Below the pieces are notes generated by a model. The model was not told the DNA's origin. It made no database searches and saw only the letters and a list, made by a program, of their open reading frames with translations. DNA of 64,000 bases from Sphingomonas sp. Leaf208 (GTDB lineage: Bacteria; Pseudomonadota; Alphaproteobacteria; Sphingomonadales; Sphingomonadaceae). This document shows positions 4,795 through 58,304 of this stretch, in pieces; within the stretch, counting starts at the first letter, position 1, and every line of letters begins with the position of its first letter. The translations under genes and the position numbers were made by a program. Where the stretch lies: positions 1 through 64,000 of the forward strand of contig NZ_LMKH01000002.1 in assembly GCF_001421415.1 (NCBI RefSeq). Direction: 5' to 3'.

Positions 4795-5018
4795 GATCGG
4801 CATTATCCCTGACGTGCGGCGCTGACTGTCGCGACGTCTTAGCCACAGACTATCATCAAAGAAGCGCATGACCAGTTGGCATGCAGCTAGCAGTCGCACC
4901 TGCCGTGATGCGGTGGCAACGGCGCGGCGCTGCGGCAACCGTGACATGCGTATTGGCGCAGCGAACGGTCTTCAGCTTAGAGGGAACCGACGCTAGAAGG
5001 CGGCGAGGAGAGCCGGTT

Positions 5019-10863: not shown

Positions 10864-10912
10864 AACGTTCGCCAGTTCCTGGCGATTTCGGGTGCTGAGG
10901 GAGACGGTCGAA

Positions 10913-13900
10913 ATGTTGCGTGCACGTTCCAAGAATATGTTGATGGTCGCGGCCTCCGTGACGGCGCTGGTGAGCAGTGGCACCGCACTCGCCCAGCAAA
11001 CGTCCACGACGCAGGGGGTGCTGCAGAACGCGCCTACCGATCAAGCCGCATCGCCGTCAGCGGCTGCTGCCGATCAGACAAGCGAAGCGCAGTCCCCAAC
11101 CACGCCCGCTAGCGACGCGGCTGCTGAAACGCAGGACATCGTCGTCACCGGCATTCGTGGATCGCAGCAGCGTGCGGTCAACCTCAAGCGCGATGCCGCG
11201 TCGGTCACCGACTCCATCTCGGCCGAAGACATCGGCAAGCTGCCCGATGTGACGATCTCGGACTCGCTCCAGCGTATCCCTGGCGTGCAGATCCGCCGTG
11301 ATGCCGGTGAGGGCGCGGCGATCAATATTCGTGGCCTGCCGCAGGTTACGACGTTGCTCAACGGCGAGGCCTATCTCGGCGCTCAGTCGATCACGACGAT
11401 CCAGCCGAACTTCAACGATATCCCGTCGCAGCTGTTCGCGGGCGCGGACGTCATTAAGTCGAGCACGGCCGATCTGCTCAACGCGGGCATCACCGGCACG
11501 GTAAACCTGCGCACACGCCGCCCGTTCGATCTCAAGAAGGGCTTTACCGTCGCTGCCGCTGCCGAGGGCGCTTATGGCGACAAGACCAAGGAGTTCGATC
11601 CGAACCTGAATGGGCTATTCGGCTTCCGAGGCGAGAAGTTCGGGTTCCTGGTGTCGGGCGCGTATTCGAACCTGCATCTTTCGAACTCCCACAACGGGAT
11701 CCAGGAAGGCTACGGGGCCGCGCTGCACAACGAGCAGTTCAATACTGCGGCCAACCCTACTGGCGACGTCAACCTCAGCAACGGCTTCTCACCGGCCAAC
11801 CGACCAAAGGGTACGATTGTCGGCACCGGCCGCGACGTGAACGGCGACGGCGACGCGAACGATGCTTTCATCGTTCCTCAGGGCTTCACCGCCTGGGACA
11901 AGGTCAACCAGCGTGAGCGGATCGGCATCAACGCCTCGGCGCAGTGGGAGATCAGCGACGCCCTGACGCTGAACGCCGATGCGTTCTTCACCCGCCAGAA
12001 CGAGAATGATCGCACCGCCGGCATCCAGATGCAGAACGTCAACTGGCAGGCCGGGGAATTCGTGCCGGGCCAGTCGCGCAACACCGGATCGACCGTGTCG
12101 CTTAGCAATGGCGGCGTGACGCGCGATTATGATCTGAATACGACCCAGATCTATAATTACGACCTCGGAAATTTCGACTCATATGCGCAGAATGACAAGT
12201 TCAAGTCTCAGTCGCAGAACTACAATGCCGAGCTGAAGTACGATAATGGTGGCCGTTTCAAAGCGAGCCTGCGCGGCGTCTACGGCAAGGCCTATTCGAA
12301 CTACGACCAGAGCTATCTGCAGTTCAGCCCATCGAATGGCGCGCAGTGGCAGCCGGGCGGGATCGGTCATTATCCGACCGGCGACGTCGCGTTCAATCCG
12401 GGTGGTTATGCGGTCAACACCATTGCGGGTACGGCATCGTTGCCAGCGACGGTCGATTTCACCGGTAACCAGCCCGTCTTCACCTTGCCGTCGCAGCTGA
12501 CGACAGCGCTTGGCAACATCGACAACTACGCGATGAAGACCACGTCTTCGGAGGGTAACTATCGCCGCAAGGGCGACCTGAAGATCATCCGCGGCGACGT
12601 TTCGTACGAGGCCAACGACAATGTCAGCCTGAGCGCCGGCGGCCGGTACAGCGAGCGCACGGTCGACGACTTCGAGTTCGATCGGGCGGCACCGCTGTAT
12701 GCAGGGCAAGCGTCGCAGCCGGGCGGCTGCCTGGTCAAGTGGAAGGCGTTCGACGTCCCACTTAACGATCCGTCCTGCCATGCCGGTTCGGGCACGTTCG
12801 ATACCCCAGGCTTCAGGCCCTACACGTCGGGCGTGGTCCGCAAGGCCAGCGATCCGATTTTTAACGGCCAGGTCAAGCAGTTCAACCTGCCGGGGGCCGG
12901 GCTGCCGCCGATCTACGTGCTTGATCCAAAGGTCATGGATAACGCGCTGGCGTTCCAGAACAGCTTCTACCCCGGCAACGTCGAGATTCAGAACCCGGGT
13001 GCGTCGTTCAACGTCGGCGTGAAGCAGATTTCGGGCTATGCGCAGCTCAACGTCAAGGGTGACGTGTTCGGCATTCCCGTATCCGGCAACGCCGGCCTCA
13101 AGGTCATCAACACCAAACTCGACATCACCCAGTTCGTGACCGGTTCGCCGCGGCCCTACGGCGTCGCAAACACGGTCAACGGGACGGTCGAGACCAAGCG
13201 GAGCTTCACGGATTTCCTGCCGGCATTCAACCTGGCGTTCAGCTTTGCCGACAACCTGAAGCTGCGCCTCGCCTACTCCAAGACGATGACGCTGCTGGAT
13301 CTCAACCAATGGGGTGGTGGACTCAATCCGAACTACGCGATCGATACGAGCAACCCAGGATCGCCCGTCTTCCGCGTCACCGGAGGCAGTTCGAACGGCA
13401 ATCCGCAACTCGATCCCTGGCGCGCCACGAACGTCGAAGGCTCGCTGGAATACTATATCGGCCGCAGCAGCTTGTTGAGTGTCGGCGCCTTCTACATCGA
13501 CGTCGCCAGCTTCATCCAGTCTGGTAACATCGTGCGAACCGATCTGCCGGACAATGACGGCGTGGTCCGCAACCGGACCGTGTCGATCAGCACCCCGGTT
13601 CAAGGCGACGGTGGTACGCTCAAAGGTGTCGAAGCGGGTGCCAAGCTGTCGTTCAACGACTTCGGCTTCATTCCGACGGTGCTCTCCAACTTCGGCATCG
13701 ATGCGAACATCACCTATTCGCCGTCCGATTCGGGCGCGGTCGATCTCAAGGGAGACTCGATCCCGTTCCAGGACAATTCGAAGATCCAGACCAACCTTGC
13801 CGGCTTCTACCAGGACAATCACTTCCAGGCTCGCGTCGCCTGGAACTACCGTTCGAAGCGCGCCGTCCAGCAGGACTTCGGCGGCATCCAAGGCCTCGAA

Positions 13901-14092
13901 CTGTATCAGCAGCCGACGAACTACATCGATGCCTCGATCAGCTACGACTTCACGCCAAATCTGACGCTGTACGCACAAGGGTCGAACCTGACCGGCGAGT
14001 ATGAAAAATACTATCTGACCTTCCCGGATGAGAAAGCGTACAACAACATCTATGAACGCCGGTTCATGGCGGGCGCGCGTTTCAAGTTCTGA
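10913..14092 (+). CDS. TonB-dependent receptor
   Basis: A 1059-residue outer-membrane receptor. After a signal peptide (ending near TALAQQ) comes a low-complexity linker, then the motif AETQDIVVTGIRGSQQRAV, which resembles a TonB-box region. The plug domain follows (SISAEDIGKLPDVTISDSLQ, NIRGLPQVTTLLNGE). The beta-barrel makes up the rest and ends with aromatic Phe (RFKF). Size and plug motifs fit the large Xanthomonas/Caulobacter-type carbohydrate receptors. The ATG at 10913 has GGGAG 8 bases upstream; a GTG seven codons earlier is less well placed. It leads a set of genes that continues to the GH27 enzyme, so it probably imports oligosaccharides processed by this locus. Confidence 0.92.
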   Translation: MLRARSKNMLMVAASVTALVSSGTALAQQTSTTQGVLQNAPTDQAASPSAAAADQTSEAQSPTTPASDAAAETQDIVVTGIRGSQQRAVNLKRDAASVTDSISAEDIGKLPDVTISDSLQRIPGVQIRRDAGEGAAINIRGLPQVTTLLNGEAYLGAQSITTIQPNFNDIPSQLFAGADVIKSSTADLLNAGITGTVNLRTRRPFDLKKGFTVAAAAEGAYGDKTKEFDPNLNGLFGFRGEKFGFLVSGAYSNLHLSNSHNGIQEGYGAALHNEQFNTAANPTGDVNLSNGFSPANRPKGTIVGTGRDVNGDGDANDAFIVPQGFTAWDKVNQRERIGINASAQWEISDALTLNADAFFTRQNENDRTAGIQMQNVNWQAGEFVPGQSRNTGSTVSLSNGGVTRDYDLNTTQIYNYDLGNFDSYAQNDKFKSQSQNYNAELKYDNGGRFKASLRGVYGKAYSNYDQSYLQFSPSNGAQWQPGGIGHYPTGDVAFNPGGYAVNTIAGTASLPATVDFTGNQPVFTLPSQLTTALGNIDNYAMKTTSSEGNYRRKGDLKIIRGDVSYEANDNVSLSAGGRYSERTVDDFEFDRAAPLYAGQASQPGGCLVKWKAFDVPLNDPSCHAGSGTFDTPGFRPYTSGVVRKASDPIFNGQVKQFNLPGAGLPPIYVLDPKVMDNALAFQNSFYPGNVEIQNPGASFNVGVKQISGYAQLNVKGDVFGIPVSGNAGLKVINTKLDITQFVTGSPRPYGVANTVNGTVETKRSFTDFLPAFNLAFSFADNLKLRLAYSKTMTLLDLNQWGGGLNPNYAIDTSNPGSPVFRVTGGSSNGNPQLDPWRATNVEGSLEYYIGRSSLLSVGAFYIDVASFIQSGNIVRTDLPDNDGVVRNRTVSISTPVQGDGGTLKGVEAGAKLSFNDFGFIPTVLSNFGIDANITYSPSDSGAVDLKGDSIPFQDNSKIQTNLAGFYQDNHFQARVAWNYRSKRAVQQDFGGIQGLELYQQPTNYIDASISYDFTPNLTLYAQGSNLTGEYEKYYLTFPDEKAYNNIYERRFMAGARFKF

Positions 14093-14109
14093 TCTGCGGG
14101 TGAGACTGT

Positions 14110-14146
14110 AAGCGCCTGCCATCCTGTTAGTGGGTGGCGGGCGTTT
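14110..14146 (+). terminator. Stem-loop after the TBDR, terminator or attenuator
   Basis: Two 15-base arms (14110-14124 and 14132-14146) pair fully if three G-T pairs are allowed, with a 7-base loop; the second arm ends in TTT. It separates the TBDR from the halogenase-like gene and could reduce transcription of the downstream genes relative to the receptor. Confidence 0.55.
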
Positions 14147-14178
14147 GCGTGGCAACGCGCAGGATGGGGGGATTGAGC

Positions 14179-15750
14179 GTGACAGATGGAGCAGGAACAA
14201 CGCATCACTCAGGACCGCTGCGCTCGATCGTGATCGTCGGCGGCGGCACTGCGGGGTGGATGGCGGCGACGCTCCTCGCGCGCAGGCTCGATCGTCAGTC
14301 CGTGACCATCACGGTCGTCGAATCCAGCGATATCCGCACGGTGGGGGTGGGCGAGGCGACCGTTCCCGGTATCCGCGATTTCTTTCGAGAGATCGGCGTC
14401 ACCGAGCAGGAGGTCATGGCGGCTGCGCAAGGCACGGTGAAGCTCGGCATCGAGTTCGTCGACTGGAAGCGCGAAGGCGAGCGATTCTTCCACCCCTTCG
14501 GCTTGTACGGGATGCGATCGCGGGGGGTGGCGTTCCACCATTACTGGCGCAAGCTGAATGCAGCTGGGCAACCTACGCCGCTGTCCGACTTTTGTCTTGC
14601 AACCGCGCTTGCCGAACGTAACCTCTTCATGCGACCAACCGACAGTCCGGTGCATGATCTGCTATTCTTCGATTGGGCAGTCCATTTCGACGCAGGCCTG
14701 TTTGCCAAGTTCCTGGCAAAAAAGGCCGGCGAATGGGGCGTGAAACATGTCGACGCCAAGATCACCGATGTTCTCGTCGATCAGGTCACAGGTTTTATCT
14801 CCAGCGTCGACACCCAGTGTGGCAAGACGATCGCGGGCGACCTCTTCATCGATTGCTCGGGCTTTCGGTCGCTATTGCTCGGCGACGCGCTGGGCGTACC
14901 GTACGAGGATTGGACGAATCTGCTTCCATGCGATCGCGCGGTCGCGATGCCGTGCGAACGAGCAGGACCGCTTACCCCATATACGCGCAGCACGGCACTG
15001 ACTGCCGGATGGCAATGGCGGATTCCGCTGCAGCACCGGGTCGGTAACGGCTATGTCTATGCGAGCCGCCATATTTCGGATGACGAGGCCGTTGCGACGT
15101 TGAAAGGTCGGCTCGAAGGCGAAGCGCTGGCCGAGCCAAACATGATCCGCTTCCGTACCGGTCGTCGGACCGCATTCTGGCAAGGAAACTGTGTCGCAAT
15201 CGGACTCGCCGCGGGATTTATGGAACCGCTGGAATCGACGAGCATCACGCTCATCCAGACCGGCTTGGAGAAGTTGCTCGCCTTGCTGCCTGATAGGAGT
15301 TTTGATCCGGCGTTGGCGGATGAGTATAACCGGACCACGGGCCTCGAATATGCGCGTATCCGCGACTTCCTGGTGCTGCATTATTTTGCGAATGGCCGGC
15401 AAGGTCAGCCGATGTGGGATCGCTGCCGAGGCACCGCGCTACCCGAGCAGCTGGCACGCAAGCTGACATTGTTCAAGGCTCGCGGGCACCTCGTGCGCTA
15501 CGAATGGGAATCGTTTCAGGACCCAAGTTGGCTTTCCATGTATGCTGGATTTGGCATCGATGCCGCGGCGCACGACCCGCTGGCGGATCATTTCTCCCTG
15601 TCAGATCTCGAGGCAGCGTTCGAACGGATGAAGGGTTCGATACGTGACGCCGTTGCGCTTGCCGAACCGCACGAGACGTTTCTCAAGTCCTTTGCCCCTG
15701 CGTCGACTCCTCCCGCATCCCGGTCAATGAACTTTGCCGCGAATGGATAG
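14179..15750 (+). CDS. Tryptophan halogenase-like flavoprotein
   Basis: A protein of about 523 residues of the flavin-dependent halogenase family. Visible marks: the FAD-binding GGGTAGW near the N terminus, VGVGEATVPGIRDF, a Lys in TVKLGIEFVDW at the place expected for the catalytic Lys, and WQWRIP, the W-x-W-x-I-P signature of halogenases. The block AAGFMEPLESTSI is also typical. It is cytoplasmic, with no signal peptide. Members next to TonB receptors in Caulobacter, Xanthomonas and sphingomonads have no known native substrate as far as I know. I prefer GTG 14179 (GGGGGGA just upstream); ATG 14164 is an alternative. Its stop overlaps the ROK regulator start. Confidence 0.82.
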   Translation: MTDGAGTTHHSGPLRSIVIVGGGTAGWMAATLLARRLDRQSVTITVVESSDIRTVGVGEATVPGIRDFFREIGVTEQEVMAAAQGTVKLGIEFVDWKREGERFFHPFGLYGMRSRGVAFHHYWRKLNAAGQPTPLSDFCLATALAERNLFMRPTDSPVHDLLFFDWAVHFDAGLFAKFLAKKAGEWGVKHVDAKITDVLVDQVTGFISSVDTQCGKTIAGDLFIDCSGFRSLLLGDALGVPYEDWTNLLPCDRAVAMPCERAGPLTPYTRSTALTAGWQWRIPLQHRVGNGYVYASRHISDDEAVATLKGRLEGEALAEPNMIRFRTGRRTAFWQGNCVAIGLAAGFMEPLESTSITLIQTGLEKLLALLPDRSFDPALADEYNRTTGLEYARIRDFLVLHYFANGRQGQPMWDRCRGTALPEQLARKLTLFKARGHLVRYEWESFQDPSWLSMYAGFGIDAAAHDPLADHFSLSDLEAAFERMKGSIRDAVALAEPHETFLKSFAPASTPPASRSMNFAANG

Positions 15751-16993: not shown

Positions 16994-17001
16994 CCAAACG
17001 A

Positions 17002-46889: not shown

Positions 46890-47909
46890 TTAAGCCGGAC
46901 CCGAACTCGAACGCCCGATAAACGTATATGGTACCTGAACCGATCGCGCGGGCCGGTCGCCTGCCTGTTGGTACGAGGGATCGGCCAGGATATCGATGGC
47001 CACGCTTGCAAGAACGGCATTGGGCTGACGAATGGTGGTCAGCTGAGGCCACGCCATGCGGGAAATAGGCGCGTCATCGAAGCCGACGACGGAGAGGGCC
47101 TTTGGTACGGCAATGTTCCTGTGCGCGGCGCTGACCAAAACACCCAGAGCCATCTCGTCGTTGGCGGCGAACACGGCGCTGGGATGGTCGTTGGTCGAGA
47201 GGATCGCGTCGCCGGCCGCCATGCCCGACCTGAAACTGAAGTCGCCGGCTTGGATCCAGGCATCTCTAACGCCGATTCCAGCGCAACGCATCGCGTCGCA
47301 AAAGCCCGCCAGTCGTTTGCCAGCCGCATCGTGCGATACGATCCCCTGAACGAACGCAATGTCGCGATGCCCCAGCGTGATAAGGTGATCGGTCATATCG
47401 CGCGCGGCCTGGTAGTCGTCGATGTGAATCACCGCGGCCGATGAGCCGGTTCGTGATGAATTCAGTTTCACGACCGGGATGCCGCGGGAATCGAGCAGGT
47501 CGGTGAGATCGGACCAGTCGCAGATCGGCGGGGTTAGAATGACCCCGGCGAGCTGCAAGGCCTGCAACGTTCTTGATACCTCGTCGAGCGTCTCGGGCCC
47601 GTCGCGGTCGATCCTTTCGACGACGAGATGATAGCCGTGATGGCGGCAGCGGGCCATTGCGCCCAGTTGGACCTCTGCAGCGTACCCCGATGCCGGATCG
47701 TCGAAGAACAATCCGATGAGGTAGGACCGCGAACTCGACAGGCTGCGGGCGTAGGCGTTCGGGCGATAACCCAGTTCCTCGACGACACTCAGCACATGGT
47801 CTCGTACCGCTGGCCGAACATGTGCCTCCGCATTCATCACCCGCGAAACGGTCTTGGGCGACACGCCTGCAGCGCGCGCAACATCCTTGATGGTTACCGG
47901 CGGCATCAT
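46890..47909 (-). CDS. LacI family transcriptional regulator
   Basis: A 339-residue repressor. The N-terminal helix-turn-helix VTIKDVARAAGVSPKTVSRVMN is the LacI signature, with hinge region near GYRPNAYARSLSS, followed by a periplasmic-binding-protein-like sugar domain (SYLIGLFFDDPASG, SAVFAANDEMALGVL, ALSVVGFDDAPIS). It binds DNA until a sugar releases it. It starts 8 bases after the MFS stop and is in that operon. A palindrome GACATCGATGTC with a central CG, as LacI-family operators usually have, occurs in the divergent promoter region and before the TBDR, so it probably controls both strands and itself. Confidence 0.9.
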   Translation of the reverse strand: MMPPVTIKDVARAAGVSPKTVSRVMNAEAHVRPAVRDHVLSVVEELGYRPNAYARSLSSSRSYLIGLFFDDPASGYAAEVQLGAMARCRHHGYHLVVERIDRDGPETLDEVSRTLQALQLAGVILTPPICDWSDLTDLLDSRGIPVVKLNSSRTGSSAAVIHIDDYQAARDMTDHLITLGHRDIAFVQGIVSHDAAGKRLAGFCDAMRCAGIGVRDAWIQAGDFSFRSGMAAGDAILSTNDHPSAVFAANDEMALGVLVSAAHRNIAVPKALSVVGFDDAPISRMAWPQLTTIRQPNAVLASVAIDILADPSYQQAGDRPARSVQVPYTFIGRSSSGPA

Positions 47910-47916
47910 CGTGTTA

Positions 47917-49155
47917 TCAATCCCATGTGCGATGCCGCCACCACGCGAACGCCGCGATGAACGTGTAGCAGATGCCAGGGAGCATGAATGACATCCTCAA
48001 GCCGACCGCGTCCGCGACAACGCCGGTCAGCAACGGGATGACGGCGCCCCCGACGACTACCATGCACAACAGCATCGAGGCATAGGTCGCGGTGGAATGA
48101 TCGTCGGGCAGCGAAAGCGCGAAGATCGTCGGATACATGATCGCGTTGCACAGCCCGACTGCAAGCAGCGCCGTGGCAGCCACGGGCCCGTGCAGGCCGA
48201 TCGCCGCCGCCACGAGCGCGACGGCGGCGATCGCGCAGCCGAGCAGCATCGTCGGCGCACCATAGCGGGTGAGGTAGCGGGCGCCTACCAGTCGGCCGAC
48301 CAGCGCACCGGTCCAGTACAGACCTACAAGTTGCCCCGCCGCGACCGGCGAGACGTTCAGAATGTCGGGCATCGCCAGATACTCTACGAGTAGCGTGCCG
48401 ATCGTAACCTCGGCGCCGACATAGGCGAACATCGCGCCGCCACCTGCCAGCAAGCGCCGGTTCGACAACACGCCGACGATGCCCGAAAGCGGGACGCGAC
48501 GCGGCGCTGAGGACGCGCGCAGCAGATCGCGTTGGCAGATGAAGGCTGAGGCAAGCACAAGTGCTACCAGCGCGACCGCAAGGAACGGCAGAACGACCCG
48601 TATGTGGTCTGCCAGTTCACCAAATCGTTGCCGACCCGTCCCGAGCAGCAGCGCGGATCCTGCCAGGGACGCCAGTACGGTACCAAGCGAGTTGAAGCCT
48701 TGCAGCAAGGTCAGTCGCGAGACGGCGCTGCGCGCCGGTTCGACAACCGGGACGACTATGTTGGCGGCGATCTGCAGGAAGGTGACGCCGGCGGCAATCG
48801 CGAGGAGCGCGAGTAGAACGGTCATGTACCCAAGCGACCCAAGCGAGGCAGCCAGCAGGCCGCAACCCAGCGCGATGACGACCAGCCCCGCCGCGATGCT
48901 TCGCATGTAGCCGAACTTCACCACCAGCACGGTGATCGGCACTGCGAAGAGGAGATAGCTTGAATGGAACGCGAACTGCACCAGCAGCGAGCGCGTGTGG
49001 TTCAGGCCTTCGATCATCCGCAACCGGGGCACCAGCAATCCGACAAGCGAGTTGAGGAATCCGCCGAGAAAATAGACGCCGATACAAAGCTGGAACAGCA
49101 GTGTCGCGCGCTGTTCGCCGGTAGCGGGCGCAAGGGGCATGCTGCTGGTGTTCAC
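47917..49155 (-). CDS. MFS sugar transporter (FucP/glucose-galactose type)
   Basis: A 412-residue inner-membrane protein with 12 predicted helices. Features of the fucose/galactose/glucose:proton symporters: GVYFLGGFLNSLVGLLVPRLR in helix 1, FAFHSSYLLFAVP, GVTFLQIAANIVVPVVEP (the family has LQ-x-x-A-N-P) and RLTLLQGFNSLGTVLA. It likely imports the monosaccharide or disaccharide made by the GH3 enzyme, transcribed in the opposite direction from the same region. It is first in an operon with the LacI regulator. Confidence 0.85.
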   Translation of the reverse strand: MNTSSMPLAPATGEQRATLLFQLCIGVYFLGGFLNSLVGLLVPRLRMIEGLNHTRSLLVQFAFHSSYLLFAVPITVLVVKFGYMRSIAAGLVVIALGCGLLAASLGSLGYMTVLLALLAIAAGVTFLQIAANIVVPVVEPARSAVSRLTLLQGFNSLGTVLASLAGSALLLGTGRQRFGELADHIRVVLPFLAVALVALVLASAFICQRDLLRASSAPRRVPLSGIVGVLSNRRLLAGGGAMFAYVGAEVTIGTLLVEYLAMPDILNVSPVAAGQLVGLYWTGALVGRLVGARYLTRYGAPTMLLGCAIAAVALVAAAIGLHGPVAATALLAVGLCNAIMYPTIFALSLPDDHSTATYASMLLCMVVVGGAVIPLLTGVVADAVGLRMSFMLPGICYTFIAAFAWWRHRTWD

Positions 49156-49217
49156 GCCTCATCCTAGCAAGGCGGGGCTGCTGCGCAATGTATGACGACG
49201 GCATCGTGCTTCGCATT

Positions 49218-49229
49218 GACATCGATGTC
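49218..49229. promoter_or_regulatory. LacI-type operator GACATCGATGTC in the MFS/GH3 divergent promoter
   Basis: A perfect 12-base palindrome with central CG in the 134-base region between the MFS and GH3 starts. It is embedded in TTGACATCGATGTCGGA, whose first six bases equal a consensus -35 box. The same 17 bases recur at 51652-51668. Binding here would block both directions. Confidence 0.72.
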
Positions 49230-49289
49230 GGAGTTGGCGATCACGCTGCCAAGCCGCTCGGGAAAATGCGGCATGGGAGGATATCTACG

Positions 49290-51611
49290 ATGAGCACGGG
49301 ATTTCCGCGCATCGCCTGCGCGCTGCTGAGCGTCGCGCCAATGGCACTTTCGGCGCAGGCTCTGCCAGGGGTGGGGTCTGCAAAAGCTTCAGCTCCCAAG
49401 GTGGCTGGCGGAACGGGCGCAAGGACGTCGGAAATCTGGCGTGACACGACGAGAACCGCGGCGGACCGGGCTGACGCTCTGGTAAAGGCGATGACCAGGG
49501 CCGAAAAGCTGCTGTACGTGCACGGCATATTTCCGCCGATGGCGAAGCCGATGACATCCGACATGATTCCGTCCGCCGGTTACGTGCCCGGAGTCCCCCG
49601 TCTGGGTATACCGACGTTGCGTGAGAGCGATGCGTCGCTGGGCGTTGCCAATCAGGTCGAGCAGCGCAAGGGCGATGTGGCCACTGCGCTTCCCGCAAGC
49701 CTTGCCACTGCCGCGAGTTTCGATCCCGCCATCGCCTATGCCGGTGGCGCGATGATTGGCAGCGAAGCGCGGGCGAAGACCTTCAACGTGTTGCTTGCGG
49801 GCGGCGTGAACCTGACGCGTGATGCCTGGAACGGGCGGAACTTCGAGTATCTCGGCGAAGATCCGCTGCTGACAGGCGTCATGGGCGCGGCGTCGATCCG
49901 GGGCGTCCAGTCGAACCATATCGTCTCGACGATCAAGCATTTCGTCCTGAACAGCCAAGAGACCGGGCGAGCCGTTCTCGACGCGCGGATCGATCCGACG
50001 GCACTACGGGAAAGCGACCTGCTGGCGTTCGAGATCGCGATTGCGGATGGAAAGCCGGGCTCGGTGATGTGCGCGTACAATCGCATCGACGGCGACTATG
50101 CTTGCGAGAACAAGTTCCTGTTGACCGACGTCGTGCGCAGGGAATGGAGATATCCCGGGTTCGTCATGTCCGACTGGGGTGCCGTACATTCCACGGAGAA
50201 GGCGGCCAACGCAGGGCTCGATCAGGAGTCAGGCCAGGAACTGGATGCCAAGGTCTATTTCGGCACACCGCTTGCGAACGCTGTCGCTGCCGGGCGGGTC
50301 TCGACGGCGCGGCTCGACGACATGGTGCGCCACATCCTGACCGGGGTCATCGCCAGCGGTCTCTACGACAATCCCACGCCCACATCCGCACAGCCGATCG
50401 ACTATGCCGCCAACGCCGAGATCGCACAGCGCACTGCCGAGGCAGGTATCGTTTTGCTCAAGAATGAGAAGGGTCTTTTGCCGCTTGCCAAGACGGTACG
50501 ATCGATCGTGGTCATCGGCGGTCATGCTGACGTCGGCGTGCTGTCCGGCGGCGGCTCGTCCCAGGTTCGCTCCGTCGGCGGCGTGCCGATCGAGATCCCG
50601 CTCAAAAGTGGCGCGGCAGCCTCGTTCGCCCGGATAACCTATCACTCGTCATCGCCGCTGCGGGCCATCAGGGCTCTGGCGCCGAACGCGCAGGTGACGT
50701 TCGTCGACGGCACCGACCCGGTCGCCGCTGCCAAGGCGGCCCGAGCCGCCGACCTCGCGATCGTGTTTGCAACGCATTGGCAGACCGAAGCACAGGATGC
50801 GCCCTCCTTGTCGCTCCCCGATAATCAGGATGCGGTGATCGACGCAGTCGCCGCCGCCAATCGACGTACCATCGTTGTGCTGGAGACCGGTGGACCTGTA
50901 CTCATGCCATGGGCTACGCGGGTGCCGGCGATCGTCGAAGCCTGGTATCCGGGCCAGCGTGGCGGTGAGGCGATCGCGCGCGTGTTGTTCGGCGAGGTCG
51001 ATGCGTCGGGCCGGCTGCCGATCAGCTTCCCGCGGAACATCGAGCAACTCCCTCGCCCTCGGCCCGTGACTTCGCCGACCGGCGCGACCAGCAACGACGC
51101 CTCTGCCAATGCCGGTGCCGGAGATGCCAGCCTGCTTCCGGCCTATCCCGTCACCTATCAGGAGGGGGCGAACGTCGGGTATCGTTGGTATGCCTCACGC
51201 AAGGACACACCGCTGTTCCCCTTCGGCTTCGGGCTGAGCTACGCCAACACGAAGATCAGCAACCCACGGTTTTCGGGCGGGACCAATGCCAGCGTAACGT
51301 TCGCTGTCACCAATCAGACCGCACGTACCGGCACCGCCGTACCTCAACTCTACGCGACGTCGCCGGACGGTGGCGCGCCTCGGTTGGTCGGCTGGTCACG
51401 TCAAACGCTGGCGGCCGGCGAGACCAGGAACGTGACGATCACAGCCGATCCACGCGCGTTGGCACGGTGGGAGACCTCCGGCTGGCGCTTAAAGGGCGGC
51501 GCGTATGCGCTCAAACTCGCAACGGACGCTCAGACGACGATCGGCGCAGGGACGGTCATCCTGACTGACCGGCGCCTAGCGTCGGCCCGTGCTGCTTTTG
51601 ACACACCTTGA
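49290..51611 (+). CDS. GH3 family glycoside hydrolase (beta-glucosidase type)
   Basis: A 773-residue secreted enzyme with signal peptide (ACALLSVAPMALSAQA). The N-terminal barrel has STIKHFVLNSQETGR and the nucleophile Asp in GFVMSDWGAVHS. The second domain has VVIGGHADVGVLSGGGSSQV. A fibronectin III-like C-terminal domain follows (AVPQLYATSPDG onward). GH3 members remove beta-linked glucose, xylose or other residues from oligosaccharide ends; the exact sugar is open. ATG 49290 is set by GGGAGGA upstream. An operator-like palindrome lies 61 bases before the start, and a TBDR gene follows under the same kind of site. Confidence 0.9.
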   Translation: MSTGFPRIACALLSVAPMALSAQALPGVGSAKASAPKVAGGTGARTSEIWRDTTRTAADRADALVKAMTRAEKLLYVHGIFPPMAKPMTSDMIPSAGYVPGVPRLGIPTLRESDASLGVANQVEQRKGDVATALPASLATAASFDPAIAYAGGAMIGSEARAKTFNVLLAGGVNLTRDAWNGRNFEYLGEDPLLTGVMGAASIRGVQSNHIVSTIKHFVLNSQETGRAVLDARIDPTALRESDLLAFEIAIADGKPGSVMCAYNRIDGDYACENKFLLTDVVRREWRYPGFVMSDWGAVHSTEKAANAGLDQESGQELDAKVYFGTPLANAVAAGRVSTARLDDMVRHILTGVIASGLYDNPTPTSAQPIDYAANAEIAQRTAEAGIVLLKNEKGLLPLAKTVRSIVVIGGHADVGVLSGGGSSQVRSVGGVPIEIPLKSGAAASFARITYHSSSPLRAIRALAPNAQVTFVDGTDPVAAAKAARAADLAIVFATHWQTEAQDAPSLSLPDNQDAVIDAVAAANRRTIVVLETGGPVLMPWATRVPAIVEAWYPGQRGGEAIARVLFGEVDASGRLPISFPRNIEQLPRPRPVTSPTGATSNDASANAGAGDASLLPAYPVTYQEGANVGYRWYASRKDTPLFPFGFGLSYANTKISNPRFSGGTNASVTFAVTNQTARTGTAVPQLYATSPDGGAPRLVGWSRQTLAAGETRNVTITADPRALARWETSGWRLKGGAYALKLATDAQTTIGAGTVILTDRRLASARAAFDTP

Positions 51612-51630: not shown

Positions 51631-51665
51631 GACGTCGATGTCACGCTCTGATTGACATCGATGTC
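51631..51665. promoter_or_regulatory. Tandem LacI-type operators before the TBDR
   Basis: The perfect palindrome GACATCGATGTC is at 51654-51665, within the same TTGACATCGATGTCGGA context as the site at 49218. A near-copy, GACGTCGATGTC, lies at 51631-51642, 23 bases away, about two helical turns. Two sites on the same face would allow cooperative binding. Confidence 0.7.
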
Positions 51666-51748: not shown

Positions 51749-54700
51749 ATGAGGGGATCTATTCCGTCGGCGTTCGCGCGTTCGACGTCGGTGTTCGCGC
51801 TGGTGGCGGGGCTAACGATGCCCGGCTTGGCGAATGCGCAGGCCGCTCCAGATCAGACGCCGTCCGTTCAGGCTCAACAGGGCACGCCACAAGCCGATAC
51901 GTCGCCAGGCGTTCCGCAGGTTGAGACCGGTGCGACCGCGACCAACGCGATGCCCGACCAGGCCCCAGGCGACGAGATCGTCGTGACCGGCGTTCGCGCC
52001 TCGCTCGAGCGGTCGATCGCGATCAAGCGCGACTCGTTCGGCGTCGTCGATGCGATCAGCGCCGAAGACATCGGCAAGTTCGCCAACACCAATCTCGCGG
52101 AATCGCTGCAGCGCATTACCGGCGTGTCGATCGATCGCCGTAATGGTGAAGGCTCGACCGTCACGGTTCGCGGCTTCGGCGCGCAGTACAATCTCGTCAC
52201 GCTCAACGGCCGTCAGCTCGCGACATCGAACATCGTCGCGGTGGGCGGTGATCAGGGCGGCGACGGCGCGGGCGGCTTCGGTCGTTCGTTCGACTTCTCC
52301 AACCTCGCTTCCGAAGGCGTAAAGACGCTGGAGGTCTACAAGACCGGCCGTGCTGCTATACCCTCTGGTGGCATCGGCGCGGCCGTGAACGTCGTCAGCC
52401 GTCGTCCGCTTGATTCCAAGGACACGGGTCTGCTGGGCTCGCTCGGCGTCAAGGGCAGCTACGACAACAGCTCATCAGACTGTTTCGACTGCGGCGCGCG
52501 CGTGACGCCCGAAGTCTCGGGTACCGCCAGCTGGAGCGATCCCAACCAGCGCTTCGGCGTGTCGCTGTTCGGCAGCTACCAGAAGCGCAACTTCAGCTTC
52601 TCCAGCGTCGCGCCGGACAACTGGAACATCCGGTCGCTGACCGACTTCCTCAATCCCGGCAACGGCTTCGTCAACGGTCAGACGGTGATCAATAACCGTC
52701 CGACCAACGGCAACGTGCTGGTCTCCGTGCCGAACGACTCGCGCTATCACTTCTCCGAGGCGAGCCGCGAGCGCATCAACGGGTCGGGCGTCATCCAATT
52801 CCGTCCGACTGACACGCTGACCTTCACTGCAGATGGCCTCTATGCGCAGTTGCGCCAGTCGGAACGTCGCTCGACCCAGTCCAACTGGTTCAACCGCCCG
52901 TTCGGCGTGGTCACGTTCGACGACGCCAGCAACGGCATCGCGACGACGAGCTTCCTGTCCGAAACGATCAACGGCGTGAAGGACGAGGCGTTCGAGCAGG
53001 CGTATCGTGCGCAGAAGAACAAGCTGTACGACTTTGGCGGCAACATCGAATGGAAGCCGACCGACCGCTTCTCGCTCGCTATCGACGGCCACATCGGTCG
53101 CGCGGACAGCTCGCCTGACAATCCCAATGGTCAAACGTCGACCACAGTCGCCTTCAACGCGCCGGTCGTCGCCGCACATTCGCTTACACTCGGCAAGAAT
53201 GGCTTCCCGCAGCAGACGATCGCGATCAATGACGGTTCGGCCAGCACGACGCCAACCGGCCAGTCCTTCATCAAGGGCAACGGCAACGGCGTGATCGATC
53301 TCGGCGACCTGTCGAGCGCTGTGCAGCGTCAGTTCGCATCCAACCAGACGCAGCGGGTCAAGGAACTTCGCGCGGACGCGGGATGGGCACTGAACGATCA
53401 GCTCCGCCTCGACGCTGGTGCTGACTACCGCACCACGAATACGCGTCAGACGCAGTATAACACGCGCCAGGTCCTGGGTGACTGGGGCAATTCGCTGCCG
53501 CCCGACATCGCGCGTCTCGCGCCCGGTCAGGTCTTCCAGTTCTGCAACGTGTGCAAGTTCGAGCACAACGATGGGAATCCGGACGCCAACACCCTGGTGG
53601 CATTCCGCACGCAGGACGCGACGAAGCTCTACAACACGCTGCACGACTATTATCTCGGCGTGACGAACGACGGTGTGAACCACGCCGACAACATCGACGC
53701 GAACGACGACAACCGCGTCCGCGAGAACATCTGGTCGGGCTATGTCCAGGGATCCTGGAACGGCAAGCTGTTCGATCACAATGCGCAGCTGGTTGCCGGC
53801 GTTCGGTACGAGAACACCAAGGTGCGAGCGGTTTCGCTCCAGCCGGTGCCGACCGCGGTCGTGTGGACTGCCGACAACGACTTCTTCGTCTTGAACACCG
53901 CCGATCGGCAGACGTTGTCGTCGCGTGGCGGTTACAGCAACTGGCTGCCGTCGGTGGATGCCAAGTTCGAGGTCGTCGACAACCTCTTCGCCCGCGCCTC
54001 GTACAGCAAGACGATCTCGCGTGCAGGCTATGGCGACCTGTTCGCCTCGACCAACGTCGCCGGTCCCGGCCGCCCGACGGCGATCGGTGGCATTGCCACC
54101 GGCACTGCGCACAACACCGATCTCGATCCGCTGTCGTCGGACAACATCGACGTCTCGCTCGAATGGTATCCGCGCAAGGACGTGTTCCTGTCGGCGGGCT
54201 TCTTCAACAAGAAGGTCCACAACTTCATCGGCCAGACGGTGGTCAACCGCAATCTGTTCGGTCTGCGCGATCCCACCTCGGGCACCGCCGGGACGCGTTC
54301 GGGTACCGCGCGGGAGCAGCTCGCCGGTACGTTCAACGCCGACATCACCGACGTGAACCTGTTCACCTACACGGCGCTGCTGCAGCAGAATGCGGGCAAC
54401 GTCGCGACGACGAACGCCCAGTTCGCGGCAAACTACAACACGCAGAGCCGCGCGTTGAACCAGGGGTTCGTCGATCAGATCCTCGGCCAGTACGATATCA
54501 CCGCCAATGGGCAGGATCCGCTGTTCAACTTCGCGGTGAATACGCCCATCAACAACCAGGACGCGCACATCTACGGCGTCGAACTCGCCGGGCAGTATTT
54601 CCTCGGGGATACGGGCTTCGGCGTGGCAGCCAGCTACACGCTCGTACGCGGGAACATCGGCATCGACATCGCGGCTGATCCGAGCGTCAACACGTTCGCA

Positions 54701-55021
54701 CTGGTCGGTCTGTCTGATACCGCCAACGCCACGCTGATCTACGACAAGAACGGTATCTCGGCGCGCATGTCGTACAACTGGCGCGACAAGTTCTTGAGCG
54801 GCATCAACCGCGGCGGCGATCGTAATCCGGTGTTCACCGCGCCCTATGGTCAGCTCGACCTGTCGGTGAACTTCGACCTCACCTCGCGTTTTGCACTCGG
54901 GTTCGAAGCGATCAACATCACCGAGGAGGGCGTGCGCTCCTACGGCCGCGACAAGAGCAACATCTGGTACCTGTCGGAAGGGTCCGCCCGGTATCTGGTC
55001 GGAGCGCGATACCGCTTCTGA
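51749..55021 (+). CDS. TonB-dependent receptor
   Basis: A 1090-residue outer-membrane receptor. Signal peptide ends near GLANAQA. A Gln/Pro/Thr-rich linker is followed by GDEIVVTGVRASLERSIAIKRD and the plug (SAEDIGKFANTNLAESLQRITGVSIDRR, VRGFGAQYNLVTLNGRQL). The barrel ends YLVGARYRF. This is the large Xanthomonas/Caulobacter receptor type associated with carbohydrate uptake. ATG 51749 is favoured since GGGAGG lies 6 bases before it; the ATG at 51743 touches that site. It leads a gene row with SapC, a cupin-like protein and a halogenase-like protein, and is probably under LacI control together with GH3. Confidence 0.93.
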   Translation: MRGSIPSAFARSTSVFALVAGLTMPGLANAQAAPDQTPSVQAQQGTPQADTSPGVPQVETGATATNAMPDQAPGDEIVVTGVRASLERSIAIKRDSFGVVDAISAEDIGKFANTNLAESLQRITGVSIDRRNGEGSTVTVRGFGAQYNLVTLNGRQLATSNIVAVGGDQGGDGAGGFGRSFDFSNLASEGVKTLEVYKTGRAAIPSGGIGAAVNVVSRRPLDSKDTGLLGSLGVKGSYDNSSSDCFDCGARVTPEVSGTASWSDPNQRFGVSLFGSYQKRNFSFSSVAPDNWNIRSLTDFLNPGNGFVNGQTVINNRPTNGNVLVSVPNDSRYHFSEASRERINGSGVIQFRPTDTLTFTADGLYAQLRQSERRSTQSNWFNRPFGVVTFDDASNGIATTSFLSETINGVKDEAFEQAYRAQKNKLYDFGGNIEWKPTDRFSLAIDGHIGRADSSPDNPNGQTSTTVAFNAPVVAAHSLTLGKNGFPQQTIAINDGSASTTPTGQSFIKGNGNGVIDLGDLSSAVQRQFASNQTQRVKELRADAGWALNDQLRLDAGADYRTTNTRQTQYNTRQVLGDWGNSLPPDIARLAPGQVFQFCNVCKFEHNDGNPDANTLVAFRTQDATKLYNTLHDYYLGVTNDGVNHADNIDANDDNRVRENIWSGYVQGSWNGKLFDHNAQLVAGVRYENTKVRAVSLQPVPTAVVWTADNDFFVLNTADRQTLSSRGGYSNWLPSVDAKFEVVDNLFARASYSKTISRAGYGDLFASTNVAGPGRPTAIGGIATGTAHNTDLDPLSSDNIDVSLEWYPRKDVFLSAGFFNKKVHNFIGQTVVNRNLFGLRDPTSGTAGTRSGTAREQLAGTFNADITDVNLFTYTALLQQNAGNVATTNAQFAANYNTQSRALNQGFVDQILGQYDITANGQDPLFNFAVNTPINNQDAHIYGVELAGQYFLGDTGFGVAASYTLVRGNIGIDIAADPSVNTFALVGLSDTANATLIYDKNGISARMSYNWRDKFLSGINRGGDRNPVFTAPYGQLDLSVNFDLTSRFALGFEAINITEEGVRSYGRDKSNIWYLSEGSARYLVGARYRF

Positions 55022-55032
55022 CCAAACGGCGA

Positions 55033-55058
55033 GAAGGCCGCTGACGACAGCGGCCTTC
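55033..55058 (+). terminator. Strong stem-loop between TBDR and sapC-like gene
   Basis: A perfect 10-base stem (GAAGGCCGCT / AGCGGCCTTC) with a 6-base loop, followed by CTCGTCT. It is 11 bases after the TBDR stop and 18 before the SapC start, so it probably lowers read-through into the downstream genes or protects the receptor mRNA end. Confidence 0.72.
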
Positions 55059-55076
55059 CTCGTCTAGGATCATCTC

Positions 55077-55781
55077 ATGGCGTCCTCGATACTTCTCAAC
55101 AACATCGACCACCGCGACCTGCGTGTCGCGGTCGGTCATCACGCGCGCTACGGCGATGCAATCAACCAGACGCGCGTCTTCCCAGCCGAGTTCGAGGAAC
55201 TGCAGCGCGACTATGCGATCCTGTTGCGGCGCGACGAGCACGGCGCCCTCTTCGCGACTGTTCTTTTAGGGCTCGATCCGGACGAGAACCTGTTTCTCGA
55301 CGGCGAGCGGTGGGACGCGCGGTACGTGCCGGCGGCACGGGCGCGCGGTCCCTTCTCGATCGGCGTGGATGCCAATGGCGAGCCGATGATCCACGTCGAC
55401 CCGAACCATCCGCGCATCGTCGACAACGGCGAGCCGGTGTTCCGCGACCTTGGCGGGAACGCGCCGTTGCTCGATCACGTCTCGGCGATGCTGCAGCGGA
55501 TCTATGTCGGCCTGGAGACCGAAAAGGCGATGTTCGAGGCGTTTGAGGTGGCCGGCCTGCTCGAACCCGCAACGCTGCACCTCGATCTTACCGATGGGCG
55601 GCGGTACGATATTCCTGAACGGTTCACCATCAATGCGGGGCGGCTTGCAGCGCTCGACGGCGATACCCTGGCACGGCTCCACCGCGACGACTTCTTGCGT
55701 CCGGCCTTTTGGATCGCCTCTTCGCTCGGCAACCTTCGACACCTGATCGATCGGAAGCTGCGGAAAGAGCTCCATGGCTGA
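55077..55781 (+). CDS. SapC family protein
   Basis: A 234-residue protein matching the SapC family (ILLNNIDHRDLRV at the start, VFPAEFEELQRDYAILLRRD, LFLDGERWDARYVPAA, then GPFSIGVDANGEPMIHVDPNHPRI). The family was named from Campylobacter S-layer loci, but in alphaproteobacteria it is found beside TonB receptors with cupin and halogenase genes, where its role is unknown to me. There is no signal peptide. Its stop lies 8 bases inside the cupin-like gene, so the two are coupled. Confidence 0.87.
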   Translation: MASSILLNNIDHRDLRVAVGHHARYGDAINQTRVFPAEFEELQRDYAILLRRDEHGALFATVLLGLDPDENLFLDGERWDARYVPAARARGPFSIGVDANGEPMIHVDPNHPRIVDNGEPVFRDLGGNAPLLDHVSAMLQRIYVGLETEKAMFEAFEVAGLLEPATLHLDLTDGRRYDIPERFTINAGRLAALDGDTLARLHRDDFLRPAFWIASSLGNLRHLIDRKLRKELHG

Positions 55782-56808
55782 GAAATTGCACGTATCGCGA
55801 CGCGTGCGCGAGATCGATCACTCCGGTGTCCTCGATCTGGAGGCATTGATAGCGACCGACGAGCCGGTGATCCTTCGCGGGCTCGCCGGCGACTGGCCGC
55901 TGGTCCAGGCCGGACGCAAGTCGCCGCAAGAGGCTGCCGCGTATCTGCGCCGGTTCGATGCAGGCCGCCCCGTCACTGGCTATGTCGGCGATCCGGCGAT
56001 CAGGGGGCGCTTCCATTATGACGAGACCGCGACCGCGATGAACTTCACCGCCGAGCGGATCGCGCTTGGCGTCTTCCTAGATTCCGTGCTTGGTCATCTC
56101 GGCGACGCTGAGGCACCCGCTTATTATATCGGCTCCACCGATCTCGACACCTATCTCCTCGGGTTCCGCGCTGAGAACGACCTGATACCGCACGGCAACG
56201 TGTTCGATCGCCACCCGCCGCTCGCTAGCATCTGGATCGGCAACCGCACGATCGCGTCCGCGCACCATGACATGTCGAACAACGCGGCGGTCTGCGCAGT
56301 CGGGCGACGACGCTTCACGCTGTTCCCACCGGACCAGGTCGCCAACCTCTATCCCGGCCCGCTCGCGCCGACTCCTGGAGGGCAGGTGGTGAGCATGGTG
56401 GATCTCGCCGCGCCCGATCTTGAGGCTTATCCACGCTTCGCGGCCGCGATTGCCGCCGGATCAGTGGCGGATCTGGAGGCAGGCGACGTCCTCGTCTACC
56501 CGGCTTTGTGGTGGCACCATGTCGAGGCGCTCGACGACTTCAACGTGCTCGTGAACTATTGGTGGAACGCGGCGCCCGCCTTCATGGATACGCCGATGGA
56601 CACGATGCTGCACGCTCTGCTGAGCCTGCGCGACCGGCCCCCGCAGGAGAAGCGCGCGTGGCGCGCGATGTTCGATCATTACGTGTTCGGCGATGCGGAG
56701 GCGGTTGCAGCGCATCTACCACCGCCTGCGCGCGGACCGCTCGCACCGCTCGACGAGCCCGGCGCACGTCAGTTGCGCGCCTACCTGCTGCACCGGCTGA
56801 ACCGATGA
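55774..56808 (+). CDS. Cupin-like (JmjC-type, cupin_8) protein
   Basis: A 344-residue paralog of the protein at 5019. ILRGLAGDWPLVQAG is the family N terminus. Iron ligands are predicted in SAHHDMSNN (HxD) and LWWHHVEAL (distal His), and GRRRFTLFPPDQVANLYPGP is the clade marker. It is probably an Fe(II)/2-oxoglutarate oxygenase, cytoplasmic, of unknown substrate. It overlaps SapC at its start (8 bases) and the halogenase-like gene at its end (ATGA), so these three proteins are made together and may act in one pathway. Confidence 0.85.
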   Translation: MAEKLHVSRRVREIDHSGVLDLEALIATDEPVILRGLAGDWPLVQAGRKSPQEAAAYLRRFDAGRPVTGYVGDPAIRGRFHYDETATAMNFTAERIALGVFLDSVLGHLGDAEAPAYYIGSTDLDTYLLGFRAENDLIPHGNVFDRHPPLASIWIGNRTIASAHHDMSNNAAVCAVGRRRFTLFPPDQVANLYPGPLAPTPGGQVVSMVDLAAPDLEAYPRFAAAIAAGSVADLEAGDVLVYPALWWHHVEALDDFNVLVNYWWNAAPAFMDTPMDTMLHALLSLRDRPPQEKRAWRAMFDHYVFGDAEAVAAHLPPPARGPLAPLDEPGARQLRAYLLHRLNR

Positions 56809-58304
56809 GCGAGTTTTCCGAAGCACAGCGTACCCGCGTCGTCGTCGCGGGTGGTGGCACAGCGGGCTGGATCGCGGCTGCGGCAATTGTGCGCCAGCTC
56901 GGGCCCCTGGTCGATGTGACGCTCATCGAATCAGACGAGATCGGCACCGTCGGCGTCGGCGAATCCACCATACCGACCGCGCGCAGTTTCCACGCGTTTC
57001 TCGGCATCGACGAGGCGGCGTTCATGCGTGCCACGCAAGCCACCTTCAAGCTCGGCATCGCATTCGAGAACTGGGGCCAGGTCGGCGACCGTTATTTCCA
57101 TCCGTTCGGCAGCGTCGGCAGGTCGGTGGCGATCGCCGACTTCCAGCATTTCTGGCTGGAGGCACGCGCACGCGGGTTCGGTGGCCCGTACGGCGACTAT
57201 TCGCTCGAACAGCAGGCTGCCGGCGCGGGCCTCTTCGGTCACGACGAGCAGCATTCGCTGGCCTACGCCTATCACCTCGATGCGACCGCCTATGCCCGGT
57301 TCCTGCGCACGCTGGCCGAACCCTGGGGCGTCCGGCGCGCCGAAGGACGCATCGAGCGGGTCGAACGGGACGGCGAGGGGGGCGATATCGCCGCGCTCGT
57401 CCTGGCATCGGGTGAGCGGATCGCGGGCGATCTGTTCATAGATTGCACCGGCTTCCGCGCGCTTCTGACCGAAGGCGCGCTCGGGACCGGCTTTGAGGAC
57501 TGGTCGGAATGGCTTTCGACCGACCGGGCGCTTGCCGTGCAGACGGAGACGGTCGCACCCCCCGTGCCGTACACGCGTGCGATCGCGCATGGAGCTGGCT
57601 GGCGCTGGCAAATTCCGCTTCAGACGCGGACCGGTAACGGCCTTGTCTATTCCAGCGCGCACATGACCGACGACGAGGCGCACGCGACGTTGATCGGCGC
57701 TCTTGATGGCCGCCCGCTGTTCGAGCCCCGACCGCTGCGGTTCCGCTCTGGGATGCGACGCAAGGCGTGGAACCGAAACTGTATCGCGCTGGGTCTGGCG
57801 GCGGGATTTATCGAGCCACTTGAATCAACCAGCATCCATCTGATCATGAATGCGGTGATCCGCCTGATACAGCTGTTCCCATTCCGGGGCGACGATCACG
57901 TCGCACTCGCGGCGCGCTTCAACGCGCAGTCCCGGCACGAGTGGGAGCATGTGCGCGACTTCATCATCCTCCATTACCACGTCACCCAACGTGACGATTC
58001 TCCGTTCTGGCGCGACTGCGCCCACATGACGATTCCTGATAGCCTCGCTGGGCGGATCGCACTCTTCACGAAGACCGCTGGCGCCTGGCAGGGACAGGAC
58101 GACCTGTTCAGGATCGATTCCTGGGTCTCAGTCATGCTCGGGCAAGGCGTCGAGCCCCGCGCGCATCATCGCATCGCGCGCATCATTAAGGAACAGGAGT
58201 TGCAAACCTCCTTTGCAGATCTTTCCAGAGGAATAACGAGTACAATGCGGGCGCTACCGCGACATTGCGATTTCCTAGCGCAGTATTGCCTGGCTGACGG
58301 CTGA
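56805..58304 (+). CDS. Tryptophan halogenase-like flavoprotein
   Basis: A 499-residue relative of the protein at 14179. GGGTAGWIAAAAI binds FAD. VGVGESTIPTARSFHAFLGI follows, then a Lys in QATFKLGIAFENWG at the expected catalytic place, and WRWQIP, the W-x-W-x-I-P halogenase signature. AAGFIEPLESTSIHLI is the conserved C-terminal block. No signal peptide is seen. A flavin reductase is needed as partner but none is in the window. The start overlaps the cupin stop by 4 bases. The native substrate of this clade is unknown to me; whether it halogenates at all here is not shown by sequence. Confidence 0.85.
   Translation: MSEFSEAQRTRVVVAGGGTAGWIAAAAIVRQLGPLVDVTLIESDEIGTVGVGESTIPTARSFHAFLGIDEAAFMRATQATFKLGIAFENWGQVGDRYFHPFGSVGRSVAIADFQHFWLEARARGFGGPYGDYSLEQQAAGAGLFGHDEQHSLAYAYHLDATAYARFLRTLAEPWGVRRAEGRIERVERDGEGGDIAALVLASGERIAGDLFIDCTGFRALLTEGALGTGFEDWSEWLSTDRALAVQTETVAPPVPYTRAIAHGAGWRWQIPLQTRTGNGLVYSSAHMTDDEAHATLIGALDGRPLFEPRPLRFRSGMRRKAWNRNCIALGLAAGFIEPLESTSIHLIMNAVIRLIQLFPFRGDDHVALAARFNAQSRHEWEHVRDFIILHYHVTQRDDSPFWRDCAHMTIPDSLAGRIALFTKTAGAWQGQDDLFRIDSWVSVMLGQGVEPRAHHRIARIIKEQELQTSFADLSRGITSTMRALPRHCDFLAQYCLADG

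Follow-up and report, generated by a model that had tools for sequence, protein, structure and literature searches.

A sugar-uptake operon of Sphingomonas sp. Leaf208 carrying SapC, a JmjC-like cupin and a halogenase-like flavoprotein, a receptor-linked module that may modify its TonB-dependent receptor

Positions 51749-58304 of a 64,000-nucleotide stretch of Sphingomonas sp. Leaf208 (contig NZ_LMKH01000002.1, positions 1 to 64,000; hereafter the window) contain one operon of four genes, identified from the list of open reading frames (ORFs) and from Pfam and NCBIfam profiles. The first gene encodes a TonB-dependent receptor (TBDR) of the TIGR01782 type (51749..55021, forward strand as for the whole operon; 606.9 bits, cut-off 310). 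After a gap of 55 bases follow a SapC-family gene (55077..55781; PF07277, 189 bits, cut-off 28.9), a Cupin_8/JmjC-like gene with Fe(II)-type ligands (55774..56808; PF13621, 231.8 bits), and a gene for a flavin-dependent tryptophan-halogenase-like protein (56805..58304; PF04820, 615.5 bits, cut-off 21). SapC and cupin genes overlap by 8 bases, and cupin and halogenase genes by 4 bases. The first-pass annotation of this DNA had described the same three families behind a TBDR, with apparent iron ligands in the cupin and the same two overlaps; profiles and motifs agree with the description, and the coordinates agree with the overlaps. None of the three downstream proteins has a marked N-terminal hydrophobic segment or signal peptide, as judged by eye and by a hydropathy scan, and we infer that they are cytoplasmic. 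The family name of SapC implies a surface-layer role, and the absence of such a segment together with the company of cytoplasmic-type enzymes in the operon speak against that role, at least at the level of sequence. The closest SapC relatives are 15 Sphingomonas records with 74-95% identity.

Upstream of the operon lies a gene for a glycoside hydrolase family 3 (GH3) glycosidase (longest ORF 49188..51611, forward strand; Pfam GH3 N and C domains). On the reverse strand are found a GluP/FucP-like transporter of the major facilitator superfamily (MFS) (47917..49155; Pfam MFS_1; TIGR01272 at 176 bits, under the cut-off of 202.55) and a LacI-family regulator, the probable controller of the locus (46890..47909; Pfam LacI/Peripla_BP_3). 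A sequence scan found the operator palindrome GACATCGATGTC in exact form near the divergent MFS and GH3 starts (49218..49229) and upstream of the TBDR (51654..51665), where a copy with one mismatch is also present (51631..51642). The true GH3 start is probably further in than 49188, since the first copy sits inside the first bases of this ORF. These two exact copies are the only ones in the whole 4.70 Mb genome, and with up to one mismatch there are 3 matches in the window, compared with 0.34 expected. All 15 orthologous Sphingomonas loci (L001-L015) have a copy at, or immediately ahead of, the start of the longest TBDR ORF, exact in 13 of them and with one change in L009 and L010; at the TBDR of the Caulobacter locus L016 it was not found. 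A LacI relative (51-98% identity) is encoded near the cassette in 14 of the 15, the exception being L015, which lies on a short contig. The palindrome is most simply read as a dedicated LacI-family operator, and the LacI-type operator proposed in the first-pass annotation is well supported as a sequence feature. TBDR, glycosidase, sugar transporter, regulator and shared palindrome, the components of a TBDR-based carbohydrate utilization locus, are all present, and the locus is a sugar-uptake operon, probably under LacI control.

The gap between TBDR and SapC contains a conserved hairpin (55028..55064, forward strand), recognized from fold energy and covariation. The fold energy of 55020-55076 is -30.6 kcal/mol (z -5.6), and across 11 loci, double changes that preserve the pairing occur, in one sequence or more, at 5 of 13 consensus pairs. 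The shape of the hairpin is terminator-like, without a T run, and a terminator scan did not list it. Possibly, the hairpin sets the ratio of receptor to enzymes.

The window halogenase contains GGGTAGW, WRWQIP, Lys82 (codon 57048-57050) and Glu340 (codon 57822-57824). We take GGGTAGW to be the flavin adenine dinucleotide (FAD) motif, and WxWxIP and the Lys/Glu pair to have the roles of halogenase catalytic motifs. The cupin contains His164-x-Asp166 and His248 (codons 56263-56265, 56269-56271 and 56515-56517), and all 42 aligned cupins retain these iron ligands. Among 115 halogenase-like sequences, 105 retain Lys82 and 108 retain Glu340. Lys82 is absent from ten: the flavoprotein L082, which comes from another context, and one member of each multi-halogenase cluster that was examined (nine clusters with three or four halogenases apiece, namely L031, C23 in this genome, and L194-L200). 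In 9 of 9 clusters, the Lys-less gene is the second from the TBDR; its catalytic Lys is replaced by R, C, S or A, and the neighbouring halogenases keep theirs. A conserved, inactive-looking halogenase partner therefore appears to recur in multi-halogenase clusters. Examples of this pseudo-halogenase are located at L031:15061-16494 and L033:12280-13857. We also note that in L079, L096, L098, L101, L216 and L217 two halogenases from distant tree branches are found around SapC and the cupin, and the pairs of L079 and L096 differ in type (WxWxIP/EST versus WxWxIG/EAS).

Profile searches of the genome gave 4 SapC matches, 6 Cupin_8 matches, 21 TIGR01782 TBDRs above cut-off, and 15 halogenase matches by hidden Markov model, which correspond to 14 genes if two neighbouring pieces on C23 are one. 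Most of these 14 genes sit in TBDR-linked sets of varying make-up. A second complete TBDR-SapC-cupin-halogenase set is found on contig C1 (L036; 47, 49, 63 and 59% identity). Other sets combine a TBDR and a halogenase with alpha-amylase-type (GH13) genes or with an alpha-galactosidase gene, or contain three or four halogenases clustered beside a TBDR. The label "cassette" of the first-pass annotation undersells this spread of 14 halogenase genes over mostly TBDR-linked sets of differing composition. DUF6445 (PF20043) genes are also located near TBDR-halogenase sets or halogenases (L038:12421-13089, L035:17945-18727, L179, L183-L185 and L225; assigned by Pfam for L035 and L038 and by our own profile for the others), and DUF6445 looks like a further member of the toolkit.

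We then surveyed 13 genomes of the genus, 12 of them with halogenases, in which 81 halogenase matches form 60 clusters. Matches with E above 1e-30 lie outside these 81 rows, and a cluster of three (G303, L200) is consequently counted as two of the 60. The TBDR figures refer to 150 listed TIGR01782 TBDRs, and the proximity counts are therefore lower bounds. At least 32 of the 60 clusters are within 1.5 kb of a listed TBDR (~1.5 expected), at least 42 within 5 kb and at least 45 within 10 kb. The remaining 15 clusters include 10 whose stretch contains some kind of TBDR, weakly scoring in two cases. At least 24 of 28 Cupin_8 matches are within 5 kb of a listed TBDR or a halogenase. These genomes are rich in TBDRs and flavoproteins, so the neighbourhood could be an accident of paralogue-rich genomes, with the flavoprotein a generic monooxygenase that has no link to uptake. 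We regard this as very improbable in view of the excess within 1.5 kb and of the like arrangements in Caulobacter sp. 602-1 and in the gammaproteobacterium Catenovulum adriaticum. The co-occurrence with TBDRs is thus not random, and the catalytic residues are not lost in most orthologues. On both counts the core claim of the first-pass annotation survives, namely that a catalytically intact module, for which no native substrate has been described, is linked to TBDRs in a non-random way.

Beyond the genus, SapC is present in 111 of 299 Pseudomonadota genomes. We sampled 40 SapC contexts (L073-L112) from the matches listed, sorted by score. Among these, 12 adjoin halogenases, and each of the 12 also has a TBDR, whereas a cupin is present in 8; the halogenase-like flavoprotein of L082 was not scored as a halogenase neighbour. 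The other 28 are without halogenase, cupin or DUF6445, and 4 of them have a TBDR somewhere in the stretch. Apart from SapC and its antisense ORF, no neighbour family is common to more than 7 of these 28 loci. This distribution points to an older role of SapC apart from the TBDR-halogenase module.

The glycosidase context of the module varies. In Sphingobium sp. RAC03, the cassette is accompanied by GH16, LacI, MFS, GH3 and GH43 genes. In Catenovulum adriaticum, a TBDR-halogenase-SapC set adjoins an agarase gene. On a plasmid of S. parapaucimobilis, the four cassette genes have no carbohydrate-active enzyme (CAZyme) annotated within 8 kb. Even among the 15 Sphingomonas stretches, GH3 is found in 11, and not in L008 and L011-L013. 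Overall, partner TBDRs adjoin GH3, GH13-, GH16-, GH27-type or agarase genes, and next to TBDRs with these different glycosidase neighbours, halogenase, SapC, Cupin_8 and DUF6445 recur in changing combinations. Because the glycosidase type varies, GH3 is not found in some stretches and the S. parapaucimobilis plasmid is without an annotated CAZyme, the gene neighbourhoods indicate that the receptor, and not one glycan or glycosidase, is the constant partner of the module. TBDR distances also correlate with halogenase distances (Mantel r 0.33 for 40 pairs and 0.44 for 27 genus pairs; 0 of 2000 permutations as high in either set).

This variation bears on the possibility that the enzymes process a small aromatic after uptake, for example a phenolic or an indole that is bound to the glycan or enters with it. 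Such a role would fit enzymes that look cytoplasmic and belong to a sugar-uptake operon with a sugar-type regulator, and BrvH, a related halogenase, halogenates indole (accessible text of PMC5945002). However, the module accompanies TBDRs beside all of the glycosidase types above and, on one plasmid, beside no annotated CAZyme; no aromatic-catabolic gene was recognized among the annotated linked neighbours, which are part of all neighbours; and 14 halogenase genes in one genome, most of them near a TBDR, would be redundant. We consider this explanation unlikely.

The best explanation we can offer, held tentatively, is that the enzymes modify the partner TBDR before export. We rank TBDR modification first on the grounds of the constant receptor partner, the cytoplasmic-looking enzymes, and protein-modifying relatives or analogues of the enzymes (FIH and JMJD5 for the cupin; QhpG and SrpI for the flavoprotein). 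In the proposed mechanism, SapC, the Fe(II)-type cupin and the flavoprotein would act in the cytoplasm on the newly synthesized TBDR chain, either ahead of Sec export or in its course. The chain would be held or presented by SapC and hydroxylated by the cupin, and the flavoprotein would halogenate or hydroxylate an aromatic side chain. The best single candidate for the target would be Trp380, on the presumed outer side of the barrel, and the outcome would be a receptor changed at its ligand-binding face. The uncertain step is the TBDR as substrate; the substrate of the module is unproven. The first-pass annotation had suggested two roles. The genetics and the precedents of QhpG, SrpI and FIH favour the role in modifying an uptake-system protein, short of proof from sequence, and oxidative or halogenating processing of a glycan-linked aromatic has been weakened.

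The same genetics link the enzymes to a TBDR without naming a substrate, and would also suit a module that modifies another protein or peptide of the uptake system, or that makes a diffusible halogenated signal or ligand recognized by the TBDR. There is no room inside the cassette for a precursor-peptide gene of a ribosomally synthesized and post-translationally modified peptide (RiPP), as the gap is taken up by the hairpin and the genes then overlap, although very short ORFs in the flanking gaps were not searched. In the inspected loci, no third protein is as constant a neighbour as the TBDR. We judge this alternative improbable as well.

Several observations weigh against modification of the partner TBDR. 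Among the 150 TBDRs listed, 40 have a halogenase within 5 kb and 110 do not. Five clusters (L180, L181, L182, L186, which begins at a contig end, and L187) have no TBDR of any type in the fetched stretch. SapC, as described above, occurs without the other module members in 28 of the 40 sampled contexts, among the matches listed. Moreover, the structure models of SapC and the TBDR are both of low confidence. The AlphaFold2 model of SapC from 17 sequences has a mean predicted local distance difference test (pLDDT) score of 52.9 and an unreliable fold. The TBDR model has a mean pLDDT of 47.0, with residues 373-419 under 50, and from it we used only the strand order around residues 357-379. Comparisons with PDB sequences gave no credible match for SapC (best E 0.02) and no match for the TBDR at 0.01.

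To look for a target within the receptor, we thinned a set of 145 TBDRs to 92 at 75% identity. Two TBDRs with cupin- or SapC-type neighbours and no halogenase were excluded, leaving 48 linked and 42 unlinked receptors. TBDRs with SapC and cupin in the locus and the halogenase beyond the locus end were counted as linked, and none of the 42 unlinked ones has any of the 81 halogenase rows closer than 10 kb on its contig. The most significant residue enrichment in the alignment is a Trp, which corresponds to Trp380 of the window TBDR (codon 52886..52888, forward strand) and is present in 36 of 48 linked versus 8 of 42 unlinked receptors. A second Trp column, lacking in the window TBDR, is also enriched (26/48 versus 3/42). 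In the low-confidence model, barrel strand 357-379 ends just before Trp380, presumably on the outer side. When linkage labels were simulated on the tree with a max-statistic, the p value was 0.0095 for the best Trp column, 0.047 for W/Y/F/H and 0.26 for all residues. The 48 linked receptors include three second TBDRs near a cassette; when these are left out, p becomes 0.0094 for Trp columns only and 0.23 for all residues.

These figures also tell against Trp380 as the modified residue. The enrichment is not significant unless a Trp target is assumed beforehand, and other columns (Thr, Ser and Gly) reach similar single-column p values in the tree simulations. The top column becomes Thr, ahead of Trp, once the three second TBDRs are removed. 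In a fresh set of 27 receptors, the Trp is present in 4 of 8 linked and 4 of 19 unlinked ones (p 0.15). Maltodextrin-type partner TBDRs are without the Trp though their halogenases look active. In this genome, three unlinked TBDRs near GH92, GH43 and UxuA genes do have the Trp, which is what one would expect of a residue that stacks against sugars.

Trp380 may thus be a plain sugar-contact residue, with the link to halogenases arising from shared ancestry and glycan niche, a reading that is compatible with the other explanations. The all-residue and fresh-set p values fit this reading, as does the contrast between the three sugar-gene TBDRs just named and three unlinked TBDRs near phospholipase, phosphatidylinositol (PI)-phospholipase and phytase genes, which are without the Trp. 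On the other side, cassette-type TBDRs keep the Trp in 15 of 16 grouped sequences (L112 has Tyr), and in this genome it is found in 6 of 7 linked TBDRs versus 3 of 7 unlinked ones near sugar genes, numbers too small to settle the matter. We consider the chances of this reading about even. After the phylogenetic null and the fresh set, we downgraded the Trp380 hypothesis; the enrichment is only suggestive, and Trp380 is a lead, not a finding.

If receptor modification is nevertheless assumed, a wider form of it can be formulated. Proteobacteria would have a dedicated post-translational modification of outer-membrane nutrient receptors, in which a cytoplasmic JmjC oxygenase and at least one FAD halogenase, with SapC as adaptor, hydroxylate and halogenate (probably brominate) aromatic residues of each partner TBDR, Trp380 in this case, before export and thereby tune the ligand-binding face, with the dead halogenase serving as a scaffold in clusters of three or four. 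We hold this general form to be rather doubtful.

Elsewhere in the window, profile matches identified a second TBDR-halogenase pair (10892..15750, forward strand; TBDR 10892-14092, halogenase 14134-15750). Downstream of it are an ORF that starts like the ROK-type ORF of L031 and a Melibiase_2 (alpha-galactosidase) gene, and the whole set spans 10892-18261. Another Cupin_8 gene at 4881-6056 has no adjoining SapC, and its nearest TBDR is ~4.8 kb off.

In the open literature we found no paper in which SapC or a tryptophan halogenase is considered jointly with TBDRs as one system; subscription papers were outside the search. In their accessible text, a metatranscriptome study (PMC11337851), which speculates on a halogenase in virus-receptor redox modulation, and an iron-limitation study (PMC3377617) are both without this gene set. 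A colony-morphology screen of a freshwater Sphingomonas lists a tryptophan-halogenase gene among its single-insertion hits (PMC11340318, accessible part).

Comparison with known proteins gives precedents for the separate activities. The cupin has its best PDB sequence matches in FIH and JMJD5, over the stretch that holds the HxD...H ligands; the matched entries are human or animal proteins. Both are JmjC oxygenases; they differ in having no TBDR link. The top three PDB sequence matches of the halogenase are Xcc4156 (6y1w, 574.8 bits), 9luq (526.4) and BrvH (6frl, 433.8), with the codes checked against the accessible text of PMC7336383. Xcc4156 and BrvH, both among these three, differ in being treated, in the accessible text, as single enzymes, and the words TonB, SapC and cupin are not in the main text of either paper. 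BrvH has low activity on indole, its site could admit larger substrates, and its authors doubt that indole is the natural substrate (PMC5945002, accessible text). QhpG resembles the proposed flavoprotein in that it is a FAD enzyme acting on protein Trp in the cytoplasm before export: it dihydroxylates peptidyl Trp, and according to its authors QhpC undergoes the reactions in the cytoplasm (PMC7876137, accessible text). It differs as a hydroxylase dedicated to one small periplasmic subunit, and the similarity of the window halogenase to it is weak (30.9 bits against an NCBIfam cut-off of 240 bits). SrpI is a flavin-dependent RiPP brominase acting on ribosomal peptides (PMC10858898, accessible text); it differs in being guided by a leader peptide, and we liken it to the window halogenase by description only.

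BrvH-type halogenases have been studied as biocatalysts, and their native substrate is not established. The company of nutrient receptors gives them a short list of candidate substrates, with one named residue. Receptor halogenation, if true, would add a new class to the modifications of outer-membrane proteins and alter how TBDR specificity is read from sequence. As a locus, the operon resembles carbohydrate utilization (CUT) and polysaccharide utilization (PUL) loci, with which it shares a TBDR, an inner-membrane transporter, a glycosidase, a LacI-family regulator and a shared palindrome. To our knowledge, the textbook CUT/PUL scheme does not include SapC, cupin or halogenase. The words halogenase, SapC and cupin are likewise not in the accessible main text of the CUT paper (PMC1790865). 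Each of the families is known, and the neighbours have already been named by annotators; what we regard as new is a carbohydrate-uptake locus of the CUT/PUL kind that carries an unexplained oxidative module.

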